From assembly GCA_020723325.1 (NCBI GenBank), contig DYJD01000010.1:62001-126000 (forward strand): 64,000 nt of DNA, given 5' to 3'. The notes under the pieces are model-generated. The model worked only from the letters and a program-made list of their open reading frames with translations, was not told the origin of the DNA and searched no databases. This DNA is from Desulfosudis oleivorans (GTDB taxonomy: Bacteria; Desulfobacterota; Desulfobacteria; Desulfobacterales; SURF-7). Positions 41,262 through 49,082 of the stretch are shown here, one piece after another (positions within the stretch are counted from its first letter, which is position 1; every line of letters begins with the position of its first letter). Position numbers and translations under genes: made by a program.

Positions 41262-41837
41262 ATGAGAGGTAAAACAGATACCCGCAAAAAGATTCTGGAT
41301 GCAGCCTCGACGGTGGTTCTGCGTGACGGAGCGCCGGGTCTGACTCTGGAACAGGTGGCCAAGGAGGCGGGGGTCAGCAAGGGCGGCTTGCTCTATCATT
41401 TCCCTTCCAAGGAGGCCTTGCTGCGGGGAATGGTCGAAAGGGTGATCGCAGATTTCGAGGGCGGGGTGCTGGAGCGCGTTGCCGCTGATCCGGCCAAGAA
41501 AGGGCGCTTTTTGCGGGCCTATCTTTCCGAGGTGGCGGCGTCGGCGGAATCCGGCTCGCCTCAGGAGCGGCGCATCCGTTTGCAGAGCGCCTTGATCGCG
41601 GCGGTGGCGGTGGACAAGCGGCTGCTGGACCCCCTGCGGGAACGGTATAAGATTTACCAGGAATTTGTGGAAAAGGACGGGGTCGATGCTGTCCAGGCAA
41701 CCATCATCCGGGTTGTGGCCGATGCCATGTGGCTGGCGTCCTTGTTCGACATGCCCTCTTTGAGCGCGGAAATGCAGACCAAGGTTTTGCAATATCTTTA
41801 TACCATGTCACACGGACGGAAAAAGGAGAATCCATGA
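41262..41837 (+). CDS. TetR-family autoregulator of the reductase operon
   Basis: The 191-residue protein has a TetR HTH (GLTLEQVAKEAGVSKGGLLYHFPSKEALL) and a helical C-terminal domain with few conserved residues. A palindromic operator lies in its own promoter. Its stop overlaps the ATG of the reductase gene (ATGA), so regulator and enzyme are made together. The ligand may be an enzyme substrate. Confidence 0.92.
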   Translation: MRGKTDTRKKILDAASTVVLRDGAPGLTLEQVAKEAGVSKGGLLYHFPSKEALLRGMVERVIADFEGGVLERVAADPAKKGRFLRAYLSEVAASAESGSPQERRIRLQSALIAAVAVDKRLLDPLRERYKIYQEFVEKDGVDAVQATIIRVVADAMWLASLFDMPSLSAEMQTKVLQYLYTMSHGRKKENP

Positions 41838-43231
41838 AAGCAAATCGCATTGGGAAAATGGTTTTTCCTGAAACCATGACCCGCAGGGATTTTGTAAAAT
41901 ACAGTTCTTCAGCCGCAGTGGGGTTGTGGTCCATGGCCAATCTTAGCAGCTGCAGCTTTTTGAAACCATCCCTGGTAAAAGAAGGTTACCGGGCCTGCAT
42001 TCATCAGAATGGTATTTTATCAGTACCAGGGTTGAAGGCAAGTCAGATTTTTGAGAGCAGTACGATAAACGGCATCCAGTTTAAGAACCGCATCATCCGT
42101 TCCGGAACCGTATTGGGATTAGGGGATAAAGCGGGCCGCCCCACACCTGATTCCATTGCAAAGCATGTGGCCCTGGCCCAAGGCGGTGTCGGCGCCATCA
42201 TCACCGAGGGCATAGCGGTCCGCCATGATGGGATTCATATCGGCATTAATCCCTTGTGGTTTGATGACGACGAGGACATTGCGGATTATCAGAACTTGAC
42301 CGCGGCGGTTCATGAACACAACACCTCCATCATCATGCAGGTCTTTCATGCCGGACGGCAGACGCGTTCGCTGGTCACAGGCGCACCGACCATCGCGCCG
42401 TCAGCCATCCGGGATGGTTTTTATGTGGAAGACATGCCCAAGGAGTTGACTGAAATCGGCATCGAAACAGTCATCGAGAATTTCGTTTCCGCCATCGAAC
42501 GGGCCAGAAAAGCGCAATTCGACGGAGTGCAATTGATGGCCGGTCATGGTTACCTGTTATCGGAATTCCTGTCGCCATCCATGAATCGCCGTGAGGATCG
42601 CTGGGGTGGTTCAACCGAAAACCGTTTCCGGATTATCCGGGAAATCTATACAAAAGCACGGCAACGCGTGGGCACTTTCCCGATTTTGATCAAAATGAAT
42701 GCCTACGATTTTCAGAATGATGGCATGCGCTTGGATGAATCCATCCGGATTGCCGGACTGCTTGAAGAAGTCGGATGCGATGCCATCGAGATTTCCTGCG
42801 GTGTCATGGAAGATGGTTTCGCCACCATCCGTATACCGGAATTGCTCACCGGCCCCATTTCCGAATACAGTTTCAGATTAAGGGATAAACCTTTTATCAT
42901 CAAGGAAATGATGGCCTCCATGCTGCCGCTGGTCGTGACGCTGCATGAGCCGATCTATAATTACAATGTTTGTGCCGCCGGAGAGATCAAAAAGCATGTC
43001 CGTATTCCGGTGATCGTGGTAGGCGGAATCCGGGACATGGAGGATATCCAAAGGATTATCGCGTTCAATATGGCGGATTATGTGGCCATGAGCCGACCCT
43101 TTCTCATCGAGCCTGATATCGTCAACAGCTTTAAAGAGGGGCAGCAACCGGCATCGGAATGCGTTTCCTGTGGCATGTGCATGTTTTGTCTGGATCAGAT
43201 GCCGGTTGAGTGCCATCGGGACTTGCTGTAA
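41834..43231 (+). CDS. Tat-exported old-yellow-enzyme-type NADH:flavin oxidoreductase
   Basis: I place the start at ATG 41834 (465 residues) because AAGGAG is six bases upstream. A Tat-type signal (MTRRDFVKYSSSAAVGLW, twin arginines 17-18) is followed by an old-yellow-enzyme FMN barrel (NRIIRSGTVLGLG, GVGAIITEGIAVRHDG, MAGHGYLLSEFLSPSMNRR, PVIVVGGIRDMED). It ends with four cysteines, CVSCGMCMFC and VECH, that could bind an iron-sulfur cluster as in dienoyl-CoA reductases. The usual C-terminal NAD(P)H domain is absent. A Tat signal on such an enzyme is unusual. The electron donor and substrate are unknown. Confidence 0.82.
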   Translation: MKANRIGKMVFPETMTRRDFVKYSSSAAVGLWSMANLSSCSFLKPSLVKEGYRACIHQNGILSVPGLKASQIFESSTINGIQFKNRIIRSGTVLGLGDKAGRPTPDSIAKHVALAQGGVGAIITEGIAVRHDGIHIGINPLWFDDDEDIADYQNLTAAVHEHNTSIIMQVFHAGRQTRSLVTGAPTIAPSAIRDGFYVEDMPKELTEIGIETVIENFVSAIERARKAQFDGVQLMAGHGYLLSEFLSPSMNRREDRWGGSTENRFRIIREIYTKARQRVGTFPILIKMNAYDFQNDGMRLDESIRIAGLLEEVGCDAIEISCGVMEDGFATIRIPELLTGPISEYSFRLRDKPFIIKEMMASMLPLVVTLHEPIYNYNVCAAGEIKKHVRIPVIVVGGIRDMEDIQRIIAFNMADYVAMSRPFLIEPDIVNSFKEGQQPASECVSCGMCMFCLDQMPVECHRDLL

Positions 43232-43631: not shown

Positions 43632-45647
43632 ATGGGACAGATTAAATGGTTGGTAATTCTGTTGTGCTGCCTTTCAGCATCCTCAATGGTGAACGCAGCG
43701 GAGATCAAAGATTCGGAGTCCGCCTCGCATGGGACGGATGCGGCCTCTCACACGATTGTCGCCACATACGACTTTCCGGGGTTCAAAGTCATCCAATTTG
43801 ATCTGCCGGTATTATCGGTATATTCGTATCTGCTGGTCAGCGATGGCGAAGCCCTCATGGTGGATCCGCTTAGAGACATTTTCACCTATCTGGAAACTGC
43901 CAAAAAGGAGAATGTCACCATAAAAGGAGTTTATCTTACCCATTCCCATGCGGATTTTATCGCAGGTCATACGGAAATGGTTAAGGCGCTTGGGTGCTCG
44001 ATTTATCAGAGTAAAAAAAGTGGGGTATCCTATCAAATCGAAGCATTGAAAGATGGATCAACGCTTACCATCGGCAACTCCCTGATTAAATTTATAGATA
44101 CACCTGGACATACACCGGACGGCATGTGCGCTCTGGTTTTTCCCAAAGGAAAAACCGATGTGCCTGAAATGATGTTCACTGGAGATGTGCTGTTTGTGGG
44201 CAGTGTGGGGCGTCCGGATTTGATGGGCGGTTCCATCTCGGCAGCATGGCTGGCGTCTGCCATGTTCGATTCGTGGACAAACAAACTCTCCAAATTGAAT
44301 GATGCTGTCAAGATATTTCCTGCTCATGGCGCTGGATCCCTGTGCGGCGCACATCTAAGCGATGAACCGTCATCAACCATCGGCAAAGAAAAGGCGTCCA
44401 ATCCCTATTTAAAATACACCAAACGGAGTGAGTTTATCACTGCGCTGCTGGATGGAATTCCTGAAGCACCCCAGTATTTCAAGCACAATGCCCGCATGAA
44501 CCAGGAAGGGCCGCCGCTCATAGACTGGCATGCTCCCATTCCGGTTGAAATCAAAGCGGATAAAAATCTGACCGATCCCCAAAAATACTATATGGCGGAT
44601 ATACGGGACGCAAAGCGCTATGCCGAAGGCCATATTCCCAATTCCGTGAATATCGGACTTCGGGGACGTTTGGAAACATGGACCGGTATCATGGTTCCGT
44701 GGGGGGCCGACCTGGTGCTGTGCGGCGGCCCGGCGGAACTTAAAGAAGCCTTGTACCGTCTCCATCGGGTGGGGTACAAGGCCGGCACCATTGCACCTGA
44801 AACCTGGAAAAAAGCGAATCTGCCGGTAATTGCAGGCCAGCCGATTTCACCTCGCGAACTCTATGATCTCATGCGAAGAGGTGAGGCTCCCGTGATTGTG
44901 GATGTCCGGCTTCCGGCAGAGTGGATGGCATTGCGAATCAGCACCATTCTCAATATGCCACTGACTCATCTGGCAGAGCTCTCGGCCCAGCTTGATCCTG
45001 CGGAACCGGTTGTCACGGTTTGCAACTCCGCCTATCGCTCCAGCATGGCCGCTGGAATTCTGGAGCGCAACGGATTTAAAAAACCACGAAACCTTGAAGG
45101 CGGCAGCGAGGCATGGATCAAAGCCGGATTTCCGGTGTTTGAAGGCGTAAAAGCAGACAAGGGAGCGGTGGCGGCTCCAAAACGGCAGGTCAGTCTTCCA
45201 GAACGGATTTCGGCTTCGGAACTTAAGCGCATGATGATGGATCTTCCTGGAACGTTTGAAATGGCAGACATCAGACCCCCGGAGCATTTCAGAGATTACA
45301 GCCTTCCCGGCTCCAAAAATGTTGATATTGCCGATCTGATTGACAATGCGGCGTATCTTGCCGGTTCAATCCCCTTGGTTATTGTGGATCGGGATGGCTC
45401 CATCGCCATGAGTGTCGGCGGTATTTTGTCCCAGAAAACCAAGCGTCCCATAAAGGTTTTATACGGCGGGCTTGAAAGCTACTGGGCGGAAACCCATGAG
45501 AGTTTCGGAATCCTACCGTCATCTCTGAAATCAATTGCTCCTTCAGTTCAAACACCCGCAAAACCGGCCGCTCCGGTGCCGCAGTCTCCGGAACAGCCTC
45601 CTGCAAATCAGCCTCAGGCGCCGAAAAAGAAGAGCGCAGGCTGCTGA
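43632..45647 (+). CDS. Exported CstB-like persulfide dioxygenase with rhodanese domains
   Basis: I start at ATG 43632 (671 residues), preceded by AAGGAGGA, rather than at 43566. A signal peptide ends near MVNA-AE. The MBL domain has the metal motif THSHADFIAGH (about residues 102-112), then TPGHTPDG and FTGDVLFVG. HADF-x-GH is typical of CstB-type persulfide dioxygenases. Three rhodanese-like regions follow, with VLCGGP, VTVCNSAYRSS (a full Cys loop) and LVIVDRDG (no Cys), and the protein ends KKKSAGC. It would oxidise persulfides outside the cytoplasm and move sulfur between carriers. Oxygen use by an anaerobe is puzzling; it may have a detoxifying role. Confidence 0.8.
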   Translation: MGQIKWLVILLCCLSASSMVNAAEIKDSESASHGTDAASHTIVATYDFPGFKVIQFDLPVLSVYSYLLVSDGEALMVDPLRDIFTYLETAKKENVTIKGVYLTHSHADFIAGHTEMVKALGCSIYQSKKSGVSYQIEALKDGSTLTIGNSLIKFIDTPGHTPDGMCALVFPKGKTDVPEMMFTGDVLFVGSVGRPDLMGGSISAAWLASAMFDSWTNKLSKLNDAVKIFPAHGAGSLCGAHLSDEPSSTIGKEKASNPYLKYTKRSEFITALLDGIPEAPQYFKHNARMNQEGPPLIDWHAPIPVEIKADKNLTDPQKYYMADIRDAKRYAEGHIPNSVNIGLRGRLETWTGIMVPWGADLVLCGGPAELKEALYRLHRVGYKAGTIAPETWKKANLPVIAGQPISPRELYDLMRRGEAPVIVDVRLPAEWMALRISTILNMPLTHLAELSAQLDPAEPVVTVCNSAYRSSMAAGILERNGFKKPRNLEGGSEAWIKAGFPVFEGVKADKGAVAAPKRQVSLPERISASELKRMMMDLPGTFEMADIRPPEHFRDYSLPGSKNVDIADLIDNAAYLAGSIPLVIVDRDGSIAMSVGGILSQKTKRPIKVLYGGLESYWAETHESFGILPSSLKSIAPSVQTPAKPAAPVPQSPEQPPANQPQAPKKKSAGC

Positions 45648-45667
45648 CAGAGAAAGGAGAGATCCCC

Positions 45668-46186
45668 ATGTCATCTGGAAATCAGAAACCATACAGCAAT
45701 CCCTATCTTGCTGGGGTGTTTCTCGGTGTGGTTCTGCTGGCGTCTTTTTTGCTTCTCGGGGCCGGACTCGGAGCGTCGTCGGGTATTGCCCGGCTCGGCG
45801 CGTTCTTATCCGGACTCATCTTGCCGACGCATACCTTTTCTTCGGAATATTTCGGCGCGTGGGGTGAAAAACCCCTGCATTACTACCTGGTATTTATGCT
45901 CCTAGGGGTGTTTCTGGGAGGATTGTTTTCTGCAATTCTGTCCCGGCGGGTGCAAAAATCGGTTGTTGAAAAAGGCAATGCGATTTCATCCAAAATCCGT
46001 CTGATATATGCCCTGACCGGCGGAATCCTGGTGGGTTTTGCCAGCCGTCTTGCCGGAGGCTGTACGTCGGGTCAGGCCTTGACCGGAGGCGCGCTGCTCC
46101 TGACCGGCAGTCTGATCTTTCTGATCTGCGTTTTTGCAGGGGGGTATGCCGCGGCGTACTTTGTAAGGAGGCAATGGCATGATTAG
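45668..46186 (+). CDS. YeeE/TsuA-type sulfur transporter, N-terminal-half-like
   Basis: The 172-residue protein has about four membrane segments and the YeeE/YedE motif GGCTSGQALTGGALL with its conserved cysteine. Family members bring thiosulfate or related sulfur compounds into the cell. It is half the usual length of about 350 residues, and the next gene supplies a second such half, so the two may pair. The ribosome site is AAAGGAGAG; the stop overlaps the next start by 8 bases. Confidence 0.85.
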   Translation: MSSGNQKPYSNPYLAGVFLGVVLLASFLLLGAGLGASSGIARLGAFLSGLILPTHTFSSEYFGAWGEKPLHYYLVFMLLGVFLGGLFSAILSRRVQKSVVEKGNAISSKIRLIYALTGGILVGFASRLAGGCTSGQALTGGALLLTGSLIFLICVFAGGYAAAYFVRRQWHD

Positions 46187-47684
46187 GACATTTTATGGCA
46201 CAGATACCCTGAATTCACCGGCGGCGTTTTTTATTGCATTGACAATCGGTTTTTTCTTCGGACTGACGCTTGAACGCGCAGGATTTGGAAGCTCCCGACG
46301 GCTTGCCGGCATTTTTTATTTCAAAGATATGGCGGTTCTCAAAGTGATGTTCACGGCTCTGCTAACCGCAATGATCGGGTTGTCGTTTTGTATCGGGCTG
46401 GGGGTGATTGATCCCTCAACCGAGATCTATTTTATGAAAACCTACTACGGCGCATACATTATTGCCGGTCTGATATTCGGGGTGGGATTTGTCATGAGCG
46501 GCTGGTGCCCGGGAACCGCGACCGTCGGCATGGCATCTGGAAAACTGGATGCCGTTGTGTTTCTTGCCGGTTCGGTCCTTGGCAGCATTTTTTTTAATGA
46601 ACTGTTTTCGATTGTGAAACCTTTAGTCACATGGGGACAAAGCACCCAGCAGAATATGGGCCAGGAGGGACTGGCTTTTGTCTATAATAGTCTGGGCATG
46701 TCAAAATCTGCATTCGGGTTTTTATTCACGCTGATCGCTGTCGTCTGCTTCTGGGGATCGGAATATATTGAACAACAACATTCGGATGAAATAGGGAAAA
46801 CCGGCTATTTCAACACTCCGTTTTTACGAGCCTTCAGCCTGATTCTGATGGTGAGCGCAGGTGGTTTGTTTGTGCTGGATGGCAGCGTAAATGCTGAAAA
46901 GCACAAAGCGGTTTCATCATCGTATGGGTTGCATATGTCTGAAAAAGCCCTTCTAAGGGATGTCGCCTCTGCTGTCGATCATGTGGAACCCGAAGAACTG
47001 GCAGACTATCTTTCTAATCAAGACCCGGCTGTGATCGCCGTGGATGTTCGTCCGGCAAAGGAATTCAATGCCTTTCATATCCGGGGCGCATTCAATGCTG
47101 AACTGCCGGATCTGCCTCAGTTTGTCCAACACCATACGGATAAACGGATGATTGTGCTGTATTCCAATGGCATGACACATCCGGCACAAGCAAGAGATTC
47201 TCTGGCCCGCATGGGATTTAGAAATGTGTATCTGCTGACGAACGGCTTGGGCGGATTTATCGAGCGCTGTCTAAAACCGGTTTCTCTCCGCAAAGAACCC
47301 ATGCCGGAGAATAGCATCCGGCAAATCAACTTGTGGCGCGCCTATTTCTATTCATTCGACAATGCTCGGCCTTCTGTCATCGGATCGAATCCGTCGGCTG
47401 ACAGCGCCAAATTTTCGGATATGCCGCCTTTTCTGCCGGGATTTGTGGATGCCGACTGGCTGGCGGTGCTTATGGAAAAACCGGGTTTGAAGATGATTGA
47501 TTTCAGAGATCAGCCGGAATACAATACCAATCATATCTCCGGCTCATATGCCATGTCGATAGAGAATTTCAGAGGGGTTCTGGATGGTGTGCCCTCTATG
47601 CTGATGCCCGCCAACGTGATTGCCGCCAGGCTGTCGCTGATGGGTATAGAGCCTGTTTTCAGATTTTCACAAAAGAGGCGATAA
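46179..47684 (+). CDS. YeeE/TsuA-type transporter fused to rhodanese domains, 3' end truncated
   Basis: The 501-residue protein has a YeeE half (residues about 1-215, with AGFGSSRRLAGIFYFKDM and MSGWCPGTATVGMASG), two more membrane segments and then two rhodanese-like domains outside the membrane. The first rhodanese loop reads LYSNGMTHPAQ, so the catalytic cysteine is missing. The second breaks off after ANVIAARLSLMGI with a tail PVFRFSQKRR that does not resemble a rhodanese end. The last codons overlap the convergent cardiolipin synthase gene by 18 bases. I infer that the 3' end was lost by rearrangement. It likely works with the preceding half-transporter. Confidence 0.8.
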   Translation: MIRTFYGTDTLNSPAAFFIALTIGFFFGLTLERAGFGSSRRLAGIFYFKDMAVLKVMFTALLTAMIGLSFCIGLGVIDPSTEIYFMKTYYGAYIIAGLIFGVGFVMSGWCPGTATVGMASGKLDAVVFLAGSVLGSIFFNELFSIVKPLVTWGQSTQQNMGQEGLAFVYNSLGMSKSAFGFLFTLIAVVCFWGSEYIEQQHSDEIGKTGYFNTPFLRAFSLILMVSAGGLFVLDGSVNAEKHKAVSSSYGLHMSEKALLRDVASAVDHVEPEELADYLSNQDPAVIAVDVRPAKEFNAFHIRGAFNAELPDLPQFVQHHTDKRMIVLYSNGMTHPAQARDSLARMGFRNVYLLTNGLGGFIERCLKPVSLRKEPMPENSIRQINLWRAYFYSFDNARPSVIGSNPSADSAKFSDMPPFLPGFVDADWLAVLMEKPGLKMIDFRDQPEYNTNHISGSYAMSIENFRGVLDGVPSMLMPANVIAARLSLMGIEPVFRFSQKRR

Positions 47685-49082
47685 TAAGCGACATAACCCT
47701 TGCCATAATCGTTCTGTAACACCTCTTTGATAAAGATCTTCTACCCTGATTTCTTTACTTTGACTCAAATCTTGAAAAAATCTGTTCTCAAGGTGCTGTG
47801 CAAAGATATCATCGGTTATAATAACCCCGAGCTCGAAATTGAGTCTGAAACTTCTGATATCTGCATTTGCAGAGCCGACTATCCCCCAGGCGCCGTCAAC
47901 GGCAAGCGACTTGGAATGAAGCATGGAAGCTTGATATTCAAATATTCGGACACCTGCATGAATCAGTTTGGGATAGTAAGAACGGGCCGCTAATCCGACA
48001 ATTGCGATATCGGTCCTTTCCGGAACAAGCATCCGAACATCTACGCCCCTTACGGCAGCGCTTATCAGCGCTTGCAGGGTGGGTTCATCCGGAATGAAAT
48101 AAGGGGTTGACAGGTAGCAGCATTTTTGTGCCGAGGTAATTCCTGAAAAGTAAACAAGGCTGCTTGCATTATATTTCTGATCAGGACCGCTTGGCACAAC
48201 TGCTACAACAGATGCCCCTTGTTCATAAATAGCCGATGGTTCTGGGCAAGGCAGAGTCTCGTCGGTAGCAAATTTCCAGTCTTCCTTAAAAATTTGCGAA
48301 AGATCGTATACGGCTGGACCCCTTACTGCCAAATGCGTGTCACGGAAATGGGTTATGGTTTTTTTTCTCCATTTTCGCCCTGAGTATTCATTGCCCATGT
48401 TCATTCCGCCGGTAAAACCTATTTTTCCATCTATAATAATAATTTTTCGATGGTTTCGCAGATGCACCGACCATCGCTTTTTTAATGGATTGACAGGGAG
48501 GAAGGGTTCTGCCCGTCCACCCGCTGCCCTGATCTCGGATAGACGCTTTTTATCGATACCCAGGGAGCCAATGGCATCGTATAACAGCAGAACTTCAATA
48601 CCCTTGCTTGCTTTTGCCGCAAGAAGATCTAAAAAGTGGCGACCGGTTTCATCGTTGCTGATAATATAGTATTCAGCCCATATGGATTGTTTCGCTTCCT
48701 CTATAGCCTGCTCGATTTGATCGAAGGCATTCTTGTTTTCTGTGAGCAGATCGACCGAGTTTCCAGTGGTCGGCAGAAGCCCTGTTAGTGCCGAAGAGAG
48801 GTGTAAAACAGAACCTTGGTCTTTGATGGAGTTAACACCAATTCTTGCTGTCATTGCCTTACGCACTGCCTCCGCTGTCAGGCGTTTTCTCCGGGTCGTT
48901 GATTTTATGCTCGGATTTGCAAAAAGAAGGTATGAAAACGCGCCTATTCCTGGAAAGGCAATTATCGCAAATATCCACGCAAGCGTGCCCTCTACACCAT
49001 GTCCACGCGAAATCGCGCGGAAAATGGCATAAAAATCCAAGGCAATAATAAATATGCTGATGTCTAAAAAAAAGTTTAACAT
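47667..49082 (-). CDS. cls: Cardiolipin synthase (phospholipase D family)
   Basis: The 471-residue protein has two N-terminal membrane segments (about residues 5-55) and two HKD motifs: NHRKIIIIDGKIGFTGGMN (about 222-240) and MLHSKSLAVDGAWGIVGSAN. These are the two catalytic motifs of ClsA-type enzymes, which join phosphatidylglycerol molecules into cardiolipin. Its start ATG shares one base with the stop of the glycosyltransferase gene upstream (TAATG), so it is translationally coupled to it. The end overlaps the transporter gene on the other strand. Confidence 0.92.
   Translation of the reverse strand: MLNFFLDISIFIIALDFYAIFRAISRGHGVEGTLAWIFAIIAFPGIGAFSYLLFANPSIKSTTRRKRLTAEAVRKAMTARIGVNSIKDQGSVLHLSSALTGLLPTTGNSVDLLTENKNAFDQIEQAIEEAKQSIWAEYYIISNDETGRHFLDLLAAKASKGIEVLLLYDAIGSLGIDKKRLSEIRAAGGRAEPFLPVNPLKKRWSVHLRNHRKIIIIDGKIGFTGGMNMGNEYSGRKWRKKTITHFRDTHLAVRGPAVYDLSQIFKEDWKFATDETLPCPEPSAIYEQGASVVAVVPSGPDQKYNASSLVYFSGITSAQKCCYLSTPYFIPDEPTLQALISAAVRGVDVRMLVPERTDIAIVGLAARSYYPKLIHAGVRIFEYQASMLHSKSLAVDGAWGIVGSANADIRSFRLNFELGVIITDDIFAQHLENRFFQDLSQSKEIRVEDLYQRGVTERLWQGLCRLLSPLL

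Follow-up and report, generated by a model that had tools for sequence, protein, structure and literature searches.

An exported CstB-type protein with a terminal Gly-Cys tail, encoded beside a split YeeE-type transporter

We analysed a stretch of 64,000 nucleotides (hereafter the window) from an assembly of Desulfosudis oleivorans (GCA_020723325.1, contig DYJD01000010.1, positions 62,001 to 126,000 of the forward strand), in which we confirmed three plus-strand reading frames in series, as placed by an initial annotation made from the sequence alone. They encode an exported protein of the persulfide dioxygenase (PDO) type and the two halves of a YeeE/TsuA-type transporter:

43632–45647, plus strand: gene 1, exported CstB-type (type III) PDO/rhodanese, 671 amino acids (Pfam, structure matches)
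45668–46186, plus strand: gene 2, C-terminal half of a YeeE/TsuA-type transporter, PmpA-like, 172 amino acids (PF04143, alignment)
46179–47684, plus strand: gene 3, N-terminal transporter half (PmpB-like) with two extra membrane segments and a rhodanese tail, truncated

The ATG of gene 1 at 43632 is preceded by a Shine-Dalgarno-like AGGAGG. After the removal of duplicates, we collected 44 distinct exported forms of gene 1, the one in the window counted, from at least four phyla, and the order gene 1-2-3 is maintained in 38 of the 44. The gene order is therefore not due to chance, and the three genes are a real, conserved module; this survey of relatives bears out the operon described by the initial annotation. 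A terminal cysteine arm on gene 1, an outward tail on gene 3 and the truncation of gene 3 are additions to that annotation.

Gene 1 and its terminal cysteine

The gene 1 protein comprises a metallo-beta-lactamase (MBL) domain and three rhodanese-type domains between a signal peptide and a disordered C-terminal tail. Model confidence is given as the predicted local distance difference test (pLDDT).

43632–43697, plus strand: Sec-type signal peptide, residues ~1-22 (by eye and hydropathy heuristic)
43809–44441, plus strand: MBL domain, residues ~60-270 (Pfam Lactamase_B; iron-ligand positions H104, H160 and D185; HxHADF)
44343–44345, plus strand: codon of C238 within HGAGSLCG, Cys also in both CstB-type structures by alignment
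44556–44816, plus strand: rhodanese-like domain A, conserved catalytic Cys absent, C364 in 13/44
44847–45140, plus strand: rhodanese domain B, catalytic loop CNSAYRSS with C464, which is present in 44/44
45201–45494, plus strand: rhodanese-like domain C, Asp replacing Cys, absent from the relatives L046, L047 and L110
45495–45644, plus strand: disordered Pro/Ala linker and tail KKKSAGC ending in C671 (model pLDDT, conservation)

Pfam assigns Lactamase_B and three rhodanese stretches to gene 1. By sequence, gene 1 is closest to the solved structures 3tp9 (E 1.6e-65) and, next, 3r2u (E 4.4e-48), the latter from S. aureus and taken to be its CstB; BpPRF and ETHE1 rank behind these two. Foldseek searches with the AlphaFold model (mean pLDDT 75) returned 3tp9 and 3r2u as the best matches in the same order. 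H104, D108, F109, H160, D185, H232, C238, C464 and R469 are invariant in all 44 exported forms, and C238, which presumably corresponds to C201 of CstB, is also common, together with C464, to seven of seven short signal-less forms. In the motif THSHADF of gene 1, Phe stands at the place of a His in type I/II PDOs, and the available part of PMC6060420 describes Phe or Tyr at the third His of this motif as a type III PDO feature. The same source gives H57, H113 and D130 as the iron ligands of the A. caldus PDO, which correspond by motifs to H104, H160 and D185 of gene 1. The possibility that HADF marks a special loss of function was rejected, because 3r2u and 3tp9 carry HADF as well and the motif is a type III feature (PMC6060420). 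Both homology and residues thus place gene 1 among the CstB-type/type III persulfide dioxygenase-sulfurtransferases.

With CstB and 3tp9, gene 1 shares the MBL domain, the rhodanese pair, the HADF motif and the cysteines at the positions of C238 and C464. It differs from these two proteins by its export, the third rhodanese-like domain, the Pro/Ala linker and the terminal Gly-Cys. Known CstB-type/type III members are cytoplasmic, and gene 1 departs from this. A signal-peptide-like start was found by the hydropathy heuristic in 40 of the 44 exported forms; three others (L106-L108) fall slightly below the cut-off, and L110, unscored by the heuristic, has a clear signal peptide by eye. Here and below, calls of signal peptides and membrane segments come from simple hydropathy rules with a cut-off of 1.8 chosen by us, rather than from SignalP or DeepTMHMM. 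The export signal, seen by eye and by hydropathy, agrees with the initial annotation in that the MBL protein appears secreted and not cytoplasmic.

The terminal residues of gene 1 are far more conserved than the linker leading to them. A Gly-Cys terminus is present in 43 of the 44 distinct exported forms (37/37 in an earlier set), most commonly as KKSAGC (18/37). Counted from the C terminus in the 37 relatives, pairwise identity is 1.00 for the last two residues and 0.84 and 0.63 for the next two, against 0.07-0.40 at linker positions -9 to -45. Residues 622-671 have pLDDT below 50 in the AlphaFold model, and the stretch after domain C is about 36-66 residues long by a rough rule applied to 39 of the 44 forms. 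A terminal Cys is missing from all seven short signal-less CstB-like proteins of the host's relatives, and the 278 long background frames of the loci include one with a terminal Cys and none with a terminal Gly-Cys. Exactly three cysteines, C238, C464 and C671, are invariant among the first 37 relatives. Since C238 and C464 also occur in all seven short forms, C671 is the cysteine that goes with export. L046 and L047, which are without domain C, retain the tails SQGC and EEGC, and the tail is kept in all three tailed forms that have no adjacent genes 2 and 3 (L042, L046 and L047). The mature N terminus carries, just ahead of the MBL domain, the motif D-x-E-(x3)-H (D27, E29 and H33; window positions 43710-43730), modelled as disordered. 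This motif occurs in 43 of the 44 exported forms and is missing from L110, the sole form without the tail, making it a possible partner of the C-terminal tail.

As another explanation of the terminal KSAGC, we considered a general sorting signal. The pattern K-x-A-G-C-stop was found at 20 places in ten genomes. Nine of these are gene 1, covering nine of the ten genomes (the copy in G029 is missed by the pattern), and the other 11 are not plausible long genes. A general sorting tag was therefore rejected as an explanation of the tail. Elsewhere in the host genome, an MBL protein (G000:C113:62765-63319, L002) shares 40% identity with residues 73-264 of gene 1 and has one in-frame TGA.

The split transporter and its rhodanese tail

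Genes 2 and 3 match different parts of the 310-position PF04143 model, positions 178-309 and 2-190, respectively, both above the cut-off. They are therefore complementary halves, each gene being only half a family member, which upholds the two half-transporters of the initial annotation. Gene 3 has two rhodanese matches in addition. C110 of gene 3 aligns with C91 of StYeeE and C132 of gene 2 with C293, and each of these cysteines is present in 24/24 sequences aligned (the window and 23 of the relatives rather than all 38). Gly37 of gene 3 stands at the position of StYeeE C22. According to the available part of PMC11073785, C293, C91 and C22 are the first, second and third cysteines in the path, C22 being at the cytoplasmic face beside YeeD. 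Loss of the outer pore cysteine was considered and rejected, because C22 is the third, inner cysteine (PMC11073785).

The pair is therefore not a single-chain YeeE/TsuA with three relay cysteines, as it consists of two chains with the first and second cysteines only. In PMC11582611, as far as available, PmpB corresponds to the N-half of YeeE and PmpA to its C-half, each having one conserved cysteine, and we accordingly rejected the split transporter as new. Genes 2 and 3 share with PmpA/PmpB and with YedE1E2 the separate genes for the two halves and the one invariant pore cysteine in each. They differ from the size of about 130 residues and four segments of PmpA/PmpB, gene 2 having 172 residues and gene 3 six segments followed by the rhodanese tail. 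Relative to both PmpA/PmpB and YedE1E2, the N-half, gene 3, adds two membrane segments and one to three rhodanese domains that are predicted to face outward. Given the extra segments, the tail and the greater length, genes 2 and 3 are related to and like PmpAB and are not a plain PmpAB pair. The split YedE1E2 is described in the available part of PMC10812762 as raising cellular sulfane sulfur, which is oxidised inside, and pdo genes occur in most yedE1E2 genomes (177/212). An association with a PDO is common to both systems, but the PDO paired with genes 2 and 3 is exported instead of cytoplasmic. The signal-less CstB-like genes L034, L035 and L037 of host relatives also adjoin split YeeE halves, so that CstB-like genes accompany a split pore in the absence of export as well. 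The host has a second pair of genes resembling sulfur-transport halves, adjoining a rhodanese-type protein (G000:C72:21349-23415; L023, L024).

The rhodanese tail of gene 3 is supported as periplasmic by YeeE homology, charge bias and five relatives with a separate rhodanese gene. Hydropathy gave six segments for gene 3 in 19 of the 24 sequences and five at the same threshold in the other five. Because residue 37 aligns with C22 at the cytoplasmic face of StYeeE, and with six segments, the N terminus and the tail of gene 3 would both lie outside. Lys and Arg are concentrated in loops 1 and 5 and scarce at the N terminus and in loop 2. Five divergent Planctomycetota (L085-L089, with L113-L117 as longer fetches) encode the three rhodanese domains apart from the transporter half, in a gene of their own whose product opens with one hydrophobic segment (best 19-residue means 2.04-2.64). 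Such an arrangement would be expected if, in the fused protein, the tail is exported by the sixth segment. The separate transporter half of these five, with segments counted by eye, ends without a rhodanese part, and its end is markedly basic in four of the five. C364 of gene 3, located in the predicted outward tail, is conserved in 21/24.

In the window, the rhodanese part of gene 3 is cut short within its second domain:

46989–47258, plus strand: rhodanese-like domain 1, VLYSNGMTHP, Ser at the catalytic Cys position
47430–47651, plus strand: remnant of rhodanese domain 2, the homology ending at 47651–47654
47652–47684, plus strand: unrelated codons and stop past the break, overlapping the 3' end of the convergent cardiolipin synthase gene (47667–49082, minus strand)

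Gene 3 of the window stops at residue 501, its frame closing ten unrelated codons past the end of the homology, and most relatives reach about 650-700 residues. At full length, gene 3 carries three rhodanese domains, the second and third of which together make up a thiosulfate sulfurtransferase of two domains (1uar, E 4.2e-49; Foldseek template modelling score 0.87). This unit, with the loop HCRTGHQAS, is not contained in the truncated gene 3 of the window and has the same two-domain build as the Thermus/bovine-type enzymes (1uar, 1rhd). It differs from them in being tethered to a transporter half, presumably outside, and in that its catalytic domain is lost in the window. The catalytic Cys occurs only in domain 3, in 19 of the 19 sequences that reach it. 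No match to the lost part above 30% identity was found elsewhere in the host genome. A 640-residue open frame of the host (G000:C15:85572-87275; L022, L025), possibly a tandem sulfurtransferase, has two matches to the gene 3 tail.

Gene 3 ends after domain 1 in L008, L009 and L119. In L118:3353-4801 (G541), a long Pro/Glu/Thr repeat stretch follows domain 1 up to the contig end. The isolate Neorhodopirellula pilleata Pla100 (L017:10602-12236) has weak phosphatase-like matches below the Pfam cut-offs in place of domains 2 and 3, including BLH_phosphatase, the sulfurtransferase domain type of Blh. Because these five relatives and the window differ after domain 1, domains 2 and 3 look like an optional extra, and the core would consist of gene 1, the pore and domain 1. 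A further short gene 3, in L019, was rejected as a case of domain loss, as it has a frameshift with domains 2 and 3 present.

Distribution and genomic setting

A single scan of genome contigs gave 15 relatives. In surveys that each count the genome used as the centre, the long form was found in 5/59 relatives of the host (G000, G022, G026, G029 and G043; any match at E 1e-60 in 9/59), 11/395 genomes of the host's phylum, 10/294 of the phylum of Neorhodopirellula, 8/240 from the phylum of a Verrucomicrobia assembly and 2/237 from that of an Omnitrophota assembly. It was found in none of 11 other genomes of the host's own family. A plasmid search gave only relatives below 60% identity. Duplicates dropped from the count are L026 (the window), L027 (L006), L028 (L007), L080 (L017), L103 (L020), L111 (L014) and L112 (L011), with L049-L067 holding copies, and L068-L079 and L113-L120, fetched at greater length, repeat loci already in the count. 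L042, L046, L047 and L110 lack genes 2 and 3 after gene 1, the contig ends first in L108 and L006, and in L082 a gap of about 770 bases separates genes 1 and 2. No fourth conserved neighbour gene was seen among the matches listed for 28 loci.

The tree was built from the 37-row set, before the last two surveys; L110 was found afterwards and is outside it, and later counts use 44 rows. All exported forms in the tree lie on one side of a branch and the seven short forms on the other (support 100/100). The three solo tailed forms fall within the window protein's group of eight. On this placement, the loss of domain C and of genes 2 and 3 is probably secondary, while the tail stays.

The host assembly comprises 7.2 Mb in 113 contigs. 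It contains dsrA (620 bits, cut-off 393) and cytochrome bd oxidase (602 bits), and the host is therefore of the sulfate-reducer type and equipped to meet oxygen. Upstream of the module, positions 41831-43231 encode an Old Yellow Enzyme-type flavoprotein, the start of which resembles a twin-arginine (Tat) signal followed by a lipobox-like LSSC; its score with the Tat model is slightly below the cut-off.

A proposed sulfur arm and its alternatives

We propose, at roughly even confidence, that the module is a periplasmic sulfur-processing unit with the terminal cysteine as a sulfur arm, coupled to a split YeeE-type importer. Its anatomy is well supported, and we infer its chemistry, including the cargo of the arm, the visit to the iron site, the use of oxygen and the direction of transport. 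Gene 1 would leave the cytoplasm by the Sec route, and its rhodanese domain B would take sulfane sulfur on C464. C671, on its flexible arm of about 35-65 residues, would then receive the sulfur, replacing the glutathione or coenzyme A (CoA) persulfide of cytoplasmic relatives. The reason for assigning this role to the C-terminal cysteine of gene 1 itself is that glutathione or CoA persulfide is not expected in the periplasm; no low-molecular-weight thiol is known at gene 1's location. The arm would carry the sulfur to the MBL iron site, which with oxygen would produce sulfite, or thiosulfate after a second sulfur uptake. The product or leftover sulfane sulfur could enter via the split importer, where C132 of gene 2 would be nearest the outside and the rhodanese domains would lie outside as well.

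The arm persists in forms that lack genes 2 and 3, which suggests that it acts primarily within the enzyme and secondarily in hand-over. The idea in the initial annotation that sulfur is processed outside and handed to the transporter holds in part. The anatomy fits, and the gene 3 tail would be outside too, but the putative hand-over cannot be the only use of the arm, given the three relatives without genes 2 and 3. In SoxY, periplasmic sulfur is carried on a cysteine near a flexible C terminus with a GGCGG-type end, and the arm of gene 1 would work alike, except that it is part of the catalytic protein itself and its Cys is the last residue. No SoxY family was among the Pfam/NCBIfam matches down to E 0.1 in the family scans. 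More tentatively, and at less than even confidence, gene 1 might be a PDO that carries its own thiol, the arm cysteine replacing glutathione, CoA or bacillithiol and allowing persulfide oxidation outside the cytoplasm. It would then be a counterpart of the SoxY-type arm within one protein, coupled to an importer with outward sulfurtransferase domains.

Several observations weigh against the proposed sulfur arm and importer. L110 (538 residues) is exported, yet has neither tail, domain C, genes 2 and 3 nor the D-x-E-(x3)-H motif. The three tail-bearing forms without adjacent transporter genes indicate that hand-over to this transporter is not the sole use of the arm. Gene 2 matches the YeeE structures weakly (E 0.07), and the L079 model of gene 3 has six long helices at matching places in a membrane part of low confidence. 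Without the catalytic-Cys domain of gene 3, the unit may be impaired in the window. Oxygen, finally, is scarce in the habitat of a sulfate reducer.

The terminal cysteine could instead be an anchoring or docking thiol that holds the enzyme in place through a disulfide to the transporter's rhodanese tail or to a different envelope protein. C364 of gene 3 in the predicted outward tail would be a possible partner, and the joint presence of the D27-E29-H33 motif and the tail in 43 relatives and their joint absence from L110 suit a docking pair. We regard this as unlikely, since the tail is retained in three relatives without an adjacent gene 3 and in L043-L045, where residue 364 of gene 3 (L073-L075) is Val, and the linker sequence is hardly conserved. 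It is similarly improbable that the module serves oxygen or polysulfide defence, with the exported dioxygenase clearing toxic polysulfide or scavenging envelope oxygen and the transporter having a separate or an export function. The host, with cytochrome bd and dsrA, is equipped to meet oxygen and make sulfide, and CstB belongs to the sulfide oxidation system of S. aureus (PMC5480029, as far as available). Against defence stand the presence of all three genes together in 38/44 and the import of thiosulfate or zero-valent sulfur by YeeE and YedE1E2 relatives (PMC11073785 and PMC10812762, in their available parts).

The invariance of the 2-His-1-Asp positions and of the type III motif in 44/44, together with the closest structures being CstB-type, makes it quite improbable that the MBL domain is not a dioxygenase in these hosts and acts as an oxygen-independent sulfurtransferase or hydrolase, for example releasing sulfide or thiosulfate from a carrier persulfide. 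Such an activity would suit the relatives, most of the named ones being metagenome assemblies (Desulfobacterota, Planctomycetota, Omnitrophota and Verrucomicrobia), many of them likely from anoxic habitats. Very unlikely, in our judgement, is a decaying module in this genome, in which a deletion beside cardiolipin synthase has cut gene 3 and the pathway is dead. Domain 3 and part of domain 2 are indeed gone past 47651-47654, with no copy above 30% identity in the genome, but genes 1 and 2 are intact and keep all invariant residues, a short gene 3 without domains 2 and 3 also occurs in L008, L009 and L119, and L017 carries a different domain at this place.

Of the features described here, the enzyme core, the split pore and the occurrence of a PDO in an anaerobe all belong to known kinds. 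A dioxygenase in an apparent anaerobe had seemed unexpected to the initial annotation. There is precedent for it, as the available part of PMC13047784 already describes PDO-rhodanese fusions (Rho-PDO) in cable bacteria and other Desulfobulbales, mostly strict anaerobes. The rhodanese of those fusions is N-terminal, unlike in gene 1, and that part of the source mentions neither a signal peptide nor a tail. Searches of open-licence PMC papers gave us no description of an exported PDO, a terminal-cysteine arm on a PDO or outward rhodanese domains on a YeeE half.

Known persulfide dioxygenases depend on small thiols of the cytoplasm or mitochondrion. If the proposed sulfur arm is correct, this widespread exported form with its near-invariant terminal cysteine would show a route for persulfide chemistry outside the cell, and because the arm comes down to one residue, the idea is testable by a single substitution. 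It would also connect the oxidation of sulfur in the envelope with a YeeE-type importer in Planctomycetota, Omnitrophota, Verrucomicrobiota and Desulfobacterota, in which envelope sulfur metabolism has been little studied.

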